This document shows, piece after piece, positions 1,177 through 5,364 of a DNA stretch of 64,000 nt. Position 1 is the stretch's first letter. Each line of letters begins with the position of its first letter. This DNA is from an uncultured Verrucomicrobiales bacterium (GTDB lineage Bacteria; Verrucomicrobiota; Verrucomicrobiia; Verrucomicrobiales; DEV007), in assembly GCA_937922595.1 (NCBI GenBank), contig CALAIY010000028.1, forward strand, positions 1 through 64,000, given 5' to 3'. The notes under the pieces are model-generated. The model did not search any database. It worked only from the letters and a program-made list of their open reading frames with translations, and was not told where the DNA came from. A program made the translations under genes and the position numbers.

Positions 1177-2169
1177 TTATTCGTCGCCGAGGCGGGCGTC
1201 GGGGGTGAGGTAGTTTTGGACGTAGTCGGCTACGGAGTCTGGTAGGGGGGTGAGTTGTTTTTTGTAGCCGGTTTCGCGGAGTTTGCTGATGTCGGCGCAG
1301 GTGTAGTATTGGTACTTTCCTTGGAGGACTTCGGGCATGTCGATGAATTCGATGTTGGGCTCTTTTCCTAGAGCGCTGAAGATGGCGGTGGCTAGGGTGA
1401 TCCAGGTGTTGGCTTCGCCGGATCCGAGGTTGTAGAGGCCGCCGGCGGATGGGGTGTTGGCTAGGTGGAGGGTCATTTCTACGGCGTCTTTGACGTAGAG
1501 GAAGTCGCGCTTTTGCTCGCCGTGATTGTAGTCTTCCCGGTGGGATTTGAAGAGCTGGACTTTGCCGGTTTCTACGATCTGGCCGTAGGCTTTGTGGACG
1601 AGGGAGCGCATCTCGGATTTGTGGTCTTCGTTTGGCCCGAAGACGTTGTAGTATTTGAGGCCGACGATGTCTTTGGCGATGCCTTGGCGCTGGGCGAAGA
1701 GATCGAAGAGGTGCTTGGAGTAGCCGTACATGTTGAGTGGCCTGAGCTTGTGGAGGGCTTCGCCTTCAAGGCGATCGTCCATGCCTTGGGAGCCGTCGCC
1801 ATAGGTGGCGGCGGAGCTGGCGTAGACGAAGCGGGCACCTGTCTCTAGGGCGAGGGCGCAGAGGGATTTGGTGTAGCCGTAGTTGTTCCGCATGAGGTAA
1901 TCGGAGTCTTGCTCGGTGGTGGCGGAGCAGGCGCCGAGGTGGAAGATCTGATCGAATTTACCGAAGTGCTCGGGGTCGTCTTCGAGGGCGTCGAGGACGT
2001 CATCGGCGTCTTCGTAGTCGGTGAATTTGAGGGGGACGAGGTTGCGCCATTTTTCGTCGGATTGGAGTTTATCGGCGACGATGATGTCTTCGATTCCGCG
2101 TTGATTGAGCGCCCAGATGAGGGAGCTGCCGATGAAGCCGGCTCCGCCGGTGACTAGGATTTTGGGCAT
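1177..2169 (-). CDS. hldD: ADP-L-glycero-D-manno-heptose-6-epimerase
   Basis: 330 residues. A short-chain dehydrogenase-type epimerase that converts ADP-D-glycero- to ADP-L-glycero-manno-heptose for the LPS inner core; cytoplasmic and NADP-dependent. The N-terminal Rossmann motif TGGAGFIG spans 7-14. Ser118/119 (YASSAATYG) and the Y148-x-x-x-K152 pair (YGYSK) supply the usual catalytic residues. The segment IIVADKLQSDEKWRNLV is the HldD-specific early region. Length is close to the family's usual 310-330. It lies about 100 bases downstream of the antiporter gene on the same strand. Together with lpxI and lpxB elsewhere in the window it supports a true LPS outer membrane. Confidence 0.93.
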   Translation of the reverse strand: MPKILVTGGAGFIGSSLIWALNQRGIEDIIVADKLQSDEKWRNLVPLKFTDYEDADDVLDALEDDPEHFGKFDQIFHLGACSATTEQDSDYLMRNNYGYTKSLCALALETGARFVYASSAATYGDGSQGMDDRLEGEALHKLRPLNMYGYSKHLFDLFAQRQGIAKDIVGLKYYNVFGPNEDHKSEMRSLVHKAYGQIVETGKVQLFKSHREDYNHGEQKRDFLYVKDAVEMTLHLANTPSAGGLYNLGSGEANTWITLATAIFSALGKEPNIEFIDMPEVLQGKYQYYTCADISKLRETGYKKQLTPLPDSVADYVQNYLTPDARLGDE

Positions 2170-2267: not shown

Positions 2268-3236
2268 TCAAACGAGGTCGGCGCGTTGAGCTAGGAGGTA
2301 GATGTAGCTGACGTAGACGGCTAGGAGGAGGGCTCCTTCGGTGCGGGCGACGCGCCAGGCGGAGGTCATGACGGGGATGAGGAGGAGGGATAGGCCGAGC
2401 ATGTACCAGAGGTCGATGGGGTAGATATCGGCGACGATCATGGGCTTGAGGGTGGCGGAGGCTCCGATGATGAGGAGGATATTGAAGATGCAGGAGCCGA
2501 CGACGTTGCCGGCGAGGATATCGCCTTCTTTCTTTTTGGCGGCGACTACGGCGGTGGCGAGTTCGGGGAGGGAGGTGCCGAAGGCGACGATGGTGAGGCC
2601 GATGATGGCTTCGCTGATACGGAATTGGGTGGCGATGGTGATGGCTCCGGTTTCGAGGAGCTTGGCTCCTCCGGCGAGTACGGCGGTGCCGCCGAGGATG
2701 AGGAGAATACTGAGGCCGATGCCTCCTTTTTCTGGGGCTTGGGCGATTTCTTCGACTTCGGGGGCGAGGGCGGCGTCTTCTGGATGGGCTTTGGCGGTGC
2801 GCAGGCACCAGACGGTGTAGATGATGATGCCGAGGAGGCAGAGGATGCCTTCGAGGCGCCCGATGATGCCGTTTTCCATGGCGAAGACGAAGCCGAGGGT
2901 GACGAGGATGAGGATGGGGACTTCTCGTTTTACGAGTTTTTTCTCGATGGCGATGGGATAGAGCAGGGCTCCGAATCCGAGGACGAGGGCGATGTTGCAG
3001 ATATTGGAGCCGATGACGTTGCCGAGGGCGGCGGGGGTTTCTCCTGCGAGGATGTGGAAATTGAGGCCAACGAAGAGTTCGGGGGCGCTGGTGCCGAAGG
3101 CGACGACGGTGAGGCCGACGGCGAGGGCGCTGATACCGAGGCGGAGGGCGAGCTTTACGGCGCCACTGACGAGCCATTCGGCTCCGAAGTAGAGGAGGAT
3201 GAGGCCGACGATGACTTGGATGTAGGGGATGATCAT
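2268..3236 (-). CDS. Calcium/sodium (CaCA family) antiporter, YrbG-like
   Basis: 322 residues, almost wholly hydrophobic with about ten membrane helices. It carries the two inverted alpha repeats that define the CaCA exchangers: one near 39-62 (GLTVVAFGTSAPELFVGL, then GNVIGSNICNI) and one near 195-230 (GLTIVAFGTSLPELATAV, then GNVVGSCIFNILLI). The acidic residue in each xTSxPE motif is the cation-binding position in the family. An acidic cytoplasmic loop (about 135-155) separates the halves. It probably exports Ca2+ (or K+/Ca2+) in exchange for Na+ or H+; the ion cannot be told from sequence. Confidence 0.92.
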   Translation of the reverse strand: MIIPYIQVIVGLILLYFGAEWLVSGAVKLALRLGISALAVGLTVVAFGTSAPELFVGLNFHILAGETPAALGNVIGSNICNIALVLGFGALLYPIAIEKKLVKREVPILILVTLGFVFAMENGIIGRLEGILCLLGIIIYTVWCLRTAKAHPEDAALAPEVEEIAQAPEKGGIGLSILLILGGTAVLAGGAKLLETGAITIATQFRISEAIIGLTIVAFGTSLPELATAVVAAKKKEGDILAGNVVGSCIFNILLIIGASATLKPMIVADIYPIDLWYMLGLSLLLIPVMTSAWRVARTEGALLLAVYVSYIYLLAQRADLV

Positions 3237-3283: not shown

Positions 3284-3982
3284 TTACTTGTCTCTACGGG
3301 AGAGGAAAGGGAGGGTGTTGTAAACCAAATGGGGGAAGGTTCTGAGGAGGGCTCCTAGGTCTTCTAGGGGGAGGGTTTTGAGGACTTTTAGGGTGAGGTC
3401 GCGGTGTTTGCCACGCTTGGGGAAGCTTTCGAGGGTGGCTAGGGATTCTTGGGGTCTTCGGGTGGCGGTGAAGTCGATGGAGACGGTGAGGATATTGTAG
3501 ACTTGGGCGGCGGCCCAGGCGAAGGCGGTGGCGATGATGGCGAGGCTGCCGGGAATGCGCTGGATTGCAGCGAGGAAGAGAAGGGTGAGGGCGAAGATAC
3601 CAGCTCCGGCGAGGGACATGCGGACGGCGGCGCGACGGTGCTGGTAGTGGCCGGGCTCGTGGCGGTGCTGGAGGGCTTTTCCGGCGAGGTAGGCTGCGGT
3701 GCCGTGGGCGGTGGCGGTGGCTCCGTGGAGGGTGCGGGGGTGGAAGAAGAGGACGTGCTTTTTGGGGTCGTAGTGGTCGGGAAGCATTCCGCGGTATTCA
3801 CGGATATCGACGCCGGCGGCTCCGCCTTCGTCGAGGATGTGACGCGCGATTTTGGAGCCGGGTGTTTCGCTGGAGGCGGTGGAGGTGAGGCCACGGGCGG
3901 TGATGGAGCGGACGCGGGCGCGGGCGAGAAAGGCGGAGATGAGCGCCACCGCGAGGAGGAGGATGGCGAACTTGAGGAACAT
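3284..3982 (-). CDS. YugP-family (Zn_peptidase_2) protein lacking the HExxH zinc site
   Basis: 232 residues: N-terminal membrane helix (2-20), a soluble part, then two or more hydrophobic helices (120-170). The order of motifs matches the membrane zinc peptidase family YugP: GSKIARHILDEGG, then LPDHYDPKKHVLFF, then a helix with AAYLAGKALQH. In active members that helix reads AAHEVGHALQH. Here the two zinc His and the catalytic Glu are Y98, L99 and K102, so the protein cannot be a standard metallopeptidase. A His cluster follows (HRHEPGHYQHRR, 106-117), but it does not form HExxH. The family match is from memory of the motif order. The start is 7 bases from a possible divergent start. Confidence 0.75.
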   Translation of the reverse strand: MFLKFAILLLAVALISAFLARARVRSITARGLTSTASSETPGSKIARHILDEGGAAGVDIREYRGMLPDHYDPKKHVLFFHPRTLHGATATAHGTAAYLAGKALQHRHEPGHYQHRRAAVRMSLAGAGIFALTLLFLAAIQRIPGSLAIIATAFAWAAAQVYNILTVSIDFTATRRPQESLATLESFPKRGKHRDLTLKVLKTLPLEDLGALLRTFPHLVYNTLPFLSRRDK

Positions 3983-5017: not shown

Positions 5018-5254
5018 TTAGTGCTTCTCGGCGTCGCCGTGGCTTTCTCCATGCTCTGCGTGGCCTTCTCCATGCTCTGCGTGCTCTTCACCATGATGGC
5101 TATGATCCTCACCATGCTCTTCGCCGTGATGACCGTGCTCTTCGCCGTGATGCTTGAAGAGAACTTTCGTATCCTCCCACTCATGGCGCTCGCAGGCACC
5201 AAGAGCGGCTACAGCGATGAGGGCGATGATGGGGCGAAGGTGGGGGAAAGTCAT
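5018..5254 (-). CDS. Small histidine-rich lipoprotein
   Basis: About 78 residues. MTFPHLRPIIALIAVAALGAC is a lipoprotein signal with lipobox LGAC, so the mature protein should be lipidated at Cys21. After a short HEWEDTKVLFKHH segment, the rest is built from seven-residue units of His, Glu and Gly (HGEEHGH, HGEEHAE, HGEGHAE, HGESHGD). Such tails bind Zn, Ni or Cu. A role as a periplasmic metal buffer is inference. The start at 5254 is chosen because it puts the signal peptide at the N-terminus; the frame extends 14 residues upstream. It is convergent with the transporter at 4991. Confidence 0.72.
   Translation of the reverse strand: MTFPHLRPIIALIAVAALGACERHEWEDTKVLFKHHGEEHGHHGEEHGEDHSHHGEEHAEHGEGHAEHGESHGDAEKH
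5045..5152. repeat. 21-bp tandem repeats encoding heptad His-rich units
   Basis: TTCTCCATGCTCTGCGTG occurs at 5045-5062 and again at 5066-5083. TGCTCTTCGCCGTGATG occurs at 5115-5131 and 5136-5152. The period is 21 bases in both pairs, with diverged copies between them. The repeat encodes the seven-residue units of the His-rich lipoprotein on the minus strand, so copy number could vary without breaking the frame. Confidence 0.7.
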
Positions 5255-5364
5255 TGGGTGCAGAGGGTCAGGTTTACTGGGGGTGGTGAAATACACGGCG
5301 GGGCGACAAAAATCAACGGGCGGTTTTTCCTGGGATTTTGTGGGGGAAACGGCTAGTAGGGTTG

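Follow-up and report, generated by a model that had tools for sequence, protein, structure and literature searches.

The YugP2 gene of an uncultured Verrucomicrobiales bacterium, which belongs to the YugP zinc-peptidase family, was found to lack the HExxH motif and the third-ligand glutamate of that family. Its product is probably a non-catalytic pseudoprotease, kept for a job that does not involve cleavage, such as the holding of a partner protein. The window analysed was the whole stretch of 64,000 nucleotides in which the gene lies (contig CALAIY010000028.1, positions 1 to 64,000), and the features discussed below are collected in Table 1.

Table 1. Position of the YugP2 gene, its altered and retained motifs and its neighbours in the window
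Feature	Position	Strand	Basis
Putative YugP2 pseudoprotease gene	3284..3982	minus	ORF of 232 aa, PF04298, AlphaFold2 model
Former HExxH, now Y98-L99-A-G-K102 (TAC CTC GCC GGA AAA)	3677..3691	minus	codons and conservation
Former third-ligand stretch E-x-D, now D170-F-T172	3467..3475	minus	conservation in 91 HExxH rows
Retained flanking motif LPDHYDP (67-73)	3764..3784	minus	conservation
Off-register HEPGH (108-112), inter-helix turn	3647..3661	minus	sequence; helix break in two models
Na+/Ca2+ exchanger gene (PF01699), 47 bp downstream of YugP2	2268..3236	minus	Pfam, E 2.8e-57
NAD-dependent epimerase gene, conserved near neighbour, beyond the exchanger	1177..2169	minus	Pfam

The reading frame starts with an ATG at position 3982 and stops at 3284, and residues 7-188 of its product matched Zn_peptidase_2/YugP (PF04298) with an E-value of 2.8e-25; the score of 89.6 bits was well above the curated cut-off of 27. 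The preliminary description had placed a YugP zinc peptidase here, and both the family and the coordinates were correct, with the strand now given as minus. An N-terminal hydrophobic helix was present in the protein. Pfam revealed no AAA+ ATPase domain, and there was no match in NCBIfam up to E 1 or, by sequence, among solved structures up to E 10. An AlphaFold2 model of the protein, for which 35 homologues were supplied, was confident and helical (mean pLDDT 94.4, pTM 0.89), although a decaying copy would model well too; it included helices at residues 90-108 and 110-139. A Foldseek comparison with solved structures gave nothing at E 0.001, and VIA-align gave only middling matches to many helical chains, with Z values of 4.3 for jannalysin and 4.0 for abylysin.

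To score the motif columns, 121 sequences were read, including the window protein and its own paralogue. One was a fragment without these columns, which left 120, a sample weighted to the best matches and not a census. H, E and H occupied the motif columns in 91 of the 120 sequences, the window protein being included in the total, and the window protein reads YLAGK. This analysis confirmed the earlier proposal that Y98, L99 and K102 replace all three metal-binding and catalytic residues. If the original codons were CAC, GAG and CAC, no fewer than six of their nine bases must have been substituted to give those of the window copy, with no change of frame. The LPDHYDP and GKALQH sequences that flank the lost motif were retained, as had also been described: D69, Y71 and P73, each at least 97% conserved, were all kept, and G101, A103 and Q105 stayed in register in an ungapped alignment.

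Changes beyond those in the preliminary description were detected at residues 170 and 172. All 91 sequences with HExxH (100%) have Glu at position 170, where the window copy has Asp, and D172, conserved in 90% of them, is replaced by Thr. Since the 91 intact rows were chosen by their HExxH, the motif is fully conserved there by definition, and it is E170 and the other columns that are informative. Glu170 is taken to be the third zinc ligand, in keeping with its full conservation. HExxH at the conserved position and the third-ligand Glu, both of which are required of an active PF04298 zinc peptidase, were absent from the window protein, the latter being replaced by Asp170. The combination that marks a pseudopeptidase, in which the catalytic residues are lost and the fold is kept, was found here, the fold being a prediction at the pLDDT given above.

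A third additional feature was the off-register HEPGH string, which would be compatible with an active site that has moved, either because HEPGH now works as the HExxH or because the longer QHRHEPGHYQH forms a new metal site. An off-register HExxH occurred in the window copy alone among the 121 rows, and shuffling of the window protein produced any HExxH string in 350 of 20,000 cases. Against such a move, the alignment was ungapped, with the G101, A103 and Q105 columns in register, and HEPGH lay in both models at a turn between helices, at the end of the active-site helix; in the model of a dead copy from genus g2 (described below) the matching residues lay in the gap between helices 88-105 and 110-137. 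Furthermore, the related sequence L014 has RDTPGEF at the corresponding site, and the Pro-Gly turn therefore probably predates the HEPGH string. A proline within the motif would be unexpected for a zincin. Relocation of the active site was therefore considered very unlikely, and HEPGH is probably a chance string; at the most it would form a small loop that binds metal.

The altered residues could also reflect an assembly or sequencing error in the metagenome-assembled genome, given that the window copy is represented by a single genome and that a close relative of it was not found. Such an error would have had to change three codons by at least six in-frame bases, together with D170 and T172, and the same Lys arose independently in another group, which has 25 members. 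Error is accordingly an extremely improbable explanation of the motif loss.

On the basis of gene order, the window gene is the orthologue of the second paralogue of the family, YugP2, which lies upstream of a Na+/Ca2+ (CaCA) exchanger gene and an epimerase gene, the position that the window gene also occupies. The YugP2-exchanger pair was found in eight other genomes (G007, G015, G005, G028, G020, G029, G023 and G035), which span four other genera of the family, and epimerase homologues with 62-68% identity were located near YugP2 in G002, G005, G007, G015, G020, G029 and G035. The gene order in G002 was helicase HrpB, YugP2, epimerase. No exchanger match was found on the contig of the dead copy in any of the 25 genomes of the g2 dead group (0/25); intact YugP2 loci, for example those of G009, G012 and G022, were also without an exchanger neighbour, and an exchanger of this kind was present somewhere in 56 of the 74 genomes of the family (E 1e-40). 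A neighbour with an NYN domain was common to five dead-group loci and to the second YugP copy of G076, a genome from another family. The genome that contains the window (G000) also encodes a second, intact YugP (G000:C36:12258-12887, HEAGH). In phylogenetic trees this copy fell in the canonical clade (YugP1), and the window copy fell outside it.

The preliminary description had suggested a possible role as scaffold or regulator, as opposed to a worn-out gene. The alternative, that YugP2 is no longer needed in this lineage and that the copy is decaying, its frame still open only for want of time, was examined by comparing divergence, conservation and frame survival. Among nine YugP2 proteins compared, the window copy had diverged furthest: its mean identity to the eight others was 27.5%, and the mean among those eight was 48.5%. 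The corresponding values were 46.7 and 61.7 for the exchanger and 65.2 and 69.8 for the epimerase, so the drop in identity was larger for the window copy than for its operon neighbours. Its branch was long (1.4 to 1.59 changes per column). The best-scoring match to the window protein (G002) was 33% identical, and no listed match exceeded 35%. No close relative was found among 190 relatives or in 386 genomes of the order, and a scan of genome contigs with the window protein, which may leave out very near records, gave no match. Of 30 columns conserved in at least 85% of sequences, the window copy kept 18 (18 of 27 when the three motif columns were left out); the 12 lost columns comprised five catalytic or ligand positions and seven others. 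For comparison, it kept about 9% of the 32 columns that were less than 30% conserved.

The greater divergence, and the loss of seven conserved columns outside the active site, would fit decay, as would the outcome of a neutral, substitution-only simulation at 0.1 changes per site, where the frame of 232 codons stayed open in 1337 of 4000 runs; recent decay is possible at that distance. However, the frame survived in only 243 of 4000 runs at 0.3 changes per site and in 43 of 4000 at 0.6, and the three motif codons alone show six or more changes in nine bases. In addition, the intact orthologue of G002 was nearly as far from the other YugP2 proteins (28-36% identity, compared to 24-33% for the window copy). 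The base composition at the three codon positions was that of a coding gene (GC1/2/3 of 0.65/0.48/0.79, with 0.63/0.41/0.80 for the exchanger and similar values for the epimerase). As judged from the sequence, the open frame, the operon position, the coding composition and the kept columns speak against a worn-out gene. The earlier suggestion was supported in these respects, and the larger divergence of the window copy relative to its neighbours counts against it; decay was judged to be unlikely.

The preliminary description had allowed for the case that the homologues all carry HExxH. This proved not to be so, as the motif was absent from 29 of the 120 sequences, the window copy included. Of these, 25 form a single group within genus g2, and the other four are the window copy, L043, L007 and L079. 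In L043 (HVAGH) only the Glu was lost and in L007 (QEVGH) only the first His; L079 (RAATQ) is a distant protein from another family of the order. Glu170 was kept in L007, L043 and L079. An acidic residue was present at the third-ligand position in all 29 rows, as Glu in 28 and as Asp in the window copy. In a tree of 74 rows, degenerate motifs were found in 16 of the 36 sequences outside the canonical clade and in none of the 38 inside it. A second tree of 52 rows, from which the motif columns were left out, required five changes of state, at least four of which were forced by well-supported branches. Separate losses are the simple reading of these trees, counts of this kind being unable to tell losses from regains.

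A single origin for the loss in the window copy and that in the g2 group was tested as one clade and rejected (p-AU 0.0003), in a test that took in 13 of the 25 dead-group members. By this evidence the motif of the window copy was lost independently of that of the g2 group, with the same Lys as the outcome. A clade that united the window copy with the 13 dead-group members and 12 other YugP2 sequences was absent from the best tree, in which the window branch is long, and it was not rejected (p-AU 0.154); the tree therefore does not contradict the gene order. Outside the family, the best matches in a search of 384 genomes of the class with the dead-group profile included 29 loci from other families, all of which had HExxH.

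Several of the other degenerate or bordering sequences were examined individually. L007 (positions 1477-2172, G008) sits beside an intact sister, L006 (HEVGH); their branches were 0.12 and 0.043, and the NG86 estimates were dS 1.08 and dN 0.10. The QEVGH of L007 may be a recent, single-residue loss. L079 (positions 176-871, G077), in which RAATQ replaces HExxH, belongs to the YugP family but has diverged greatly, and it represents a further, distant loss in another family of the order. The motif of L063, NLAGH, resembles an early step in the loss. Two sequences of genus g2, L054 of G018 and L061 of G063, are intact YugP2 copies that lie next to the dead group in the tree but outside it (support 92/67), and the loss is therefore bracketed within that genus.

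The g2 dead group (n = 25, one genus) had the motif [LQN][QL]xG[KH], with HExxH in none of its members. Position 98 was Gln in 16 of 25 and Leu in 8 of 25, Gln occupied position 99 and Lys position 102 in 24 of 25 each, and none of the 25 had lost the third-ligand Glu or D172. A C-terminal sequence, NLDERVGVERV, was conserved in the group and was absent from the window copy. When the proposed dN/dS measurement was applied to the 25 members, an omega of 0.067 over 227 codons was obtained with the IQ-TREE codon model. The values for intact genes were 0.038 for YugP1, taken from 17 of these 25 genomes, and 0.043 for a set of 11 YugP2. By the NG86 method, the closest pair (dS 0.31) gave an omega of 0.048, and the 14 next-closest pairs gave 0.10 to 0.33. 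As dS was below 2 in only 141 of 300 pairs, and is thus near saturation over much of the tree, the omega is to be read as a tree-wide average. One member (G052) had a TGA within the profile match. A scan of the genome contigs with the dead-group profile yielded 25 loci, 24 of which were dead copies already found; the other, L174, was a fragment. These rates indicate clear purifying selection on the dead group, which would keep an inactive protein.

A dead copy might be retained because it regulates the intact YugP1 of its own cell or joins it as an inactive subunit, either in a hetero-oligomer or as a dominant-negative brake. An intact YugP1 is available for this purpose in the genome of the window, with its HEAGH motif, and 17 of the 25 dead-group genomes have one too. 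However, the dead copy was the only PF04298 match in seven dead-group genomes, each at least 90% complete (G047, G064, G053, G052, G058, G044 and G062). By estimate from the completeness values, assembly gaps would explain one or two of these seven single-copy genomes but hardly all seven. As the only family member there, the dead copy is hardly likely to assist an active YugP in most of them. Regulation of YugP1 was thus considered quite unlikely. With respect to the preliminary description, a scaffold or regulator role may be proposed for the window protein, and the version in which an active YugP is the regulated partner is disfavoured for the dead group by the single-copy genomes.

The preferred reading, that of a pseudoprotease kept for a non-catalytic job, can be set out as follows. 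The window YugP2 would be made and folded as an integral-membrane protein that is unable to bind zinc or to cut peptide bonds; neither activity is expected, because the zinc ligands and the catalytic Glu are gone. Its old protease groove would hold a membrane partner or client without cutting it, so that the protein may still bind the former target of YugP2. The best candidate for such a partner is the Na+/Ca2+ exchanger, which is encoded directly downstream in the operon. This step is a weak one, because the g2 dead group is without an exchanger neighbour, and the partner may be a different protein or there may be none. The Lys at the position of the second His probably fills the emptied metal site, where its ammonium group would pair with the third-ligand acid; the repeated appearance of Lys and the retention of the acid suggest that a salt bridge has taken over from the metal. 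A bolder version, in which YugP2 became a metal-free, lysine-locked membrane adaptor for an ion transporter, its Lys paired with the old third ligand, and did so at least twice in one bacterial family, is regarded as doubtful.

The window protein shares with YugP/Zn_peptidase_2 (PF04298, COG2738) its family, its length, the N-terminal hydrophobic helix, DHYDP and G-x-A-x-Q, and differs from it in that HExxH and the third-ligand Glu are gone. According to the available text of the reports on Bacillus, yugP of Bacillus subtilis adjoins a K+ channel gene (PMC1471793, PMC3667857), much as the window YugP2 lies next to an ion exchanger. YugP is described in the parts available as a putative spore-membrane protease, and germination is slightly delayed in a mutant that lacks both yugP and htrC (PMC13393411); YugP itself appears there only as a putative protease (PMC1471793, PMC3667857, PMC13393411).

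Inactive zincins are a known general kind, and the loss of HExxH reported here is not limited to one gene. In the accessible portion of a survey of HExxH families, replacement of the second His by Lys and of the Glu by Leu or Gln was over-represented, with roles described as unclear, and five independent losses of HExxH were noted in CLCA (PMC3650047). These inactive zincins, CLCA among others, resemble YugP2 in the types of substitution and in the repeated losses and differ from it in family, PF04298 being named in that portion only as a neighbour of CLCA_X (PMC3650047). The FtsHi pseudoproteases of chloroplasts (M41) offer a close analogy as membrane metalloproteases that were kept without the motif, FtsHi5 having WAAGR where the window protein has YLAGK; FtsHi is described as having an AAA+ ATPase domain and a role in the chloroplast import machinery (PMC11266112), and Pfam showed no such domain in the window protein. 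A further comparison is the g2 dead group, which is of the YugP family and, like the window copy, has Lys at the second-His position and an acid at the third-ligand position; it differs in its separate origin, its other gene neighbours and its conserved C-terminal motif. No report of a YugP pseudoprotease was found in the open-access literature searched, a body of text that leaves subscription papers mostly uncovered.

For YugP, a family of bacterial membrane proteins without a settled biochemical role, the repeated loss of catalysis in a lineage that retains the protein points to a second function that is not catalytic, and the natural dead mutants described here are offered as material for finding it. 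The recurring lysine also suggests how a zinc site may be stabilised once it is empty, a rule that can be tested.

Two other features of the window were recorded. A gene at positions 5018-5296 on the minus strand encodes a putative lipoprotein of 92 amino acids with a His/Glu-rich tail (HGEEHGHHGEEH...), in which LGAC is presumably the lipobox; 21-bp tandem repeats overlap the gene, and the protein looks metal-binding from its sequence. At positions 1-26, read by eye, there is an apparent 3' end of a tRNA gene that is cut by the edge of the window.
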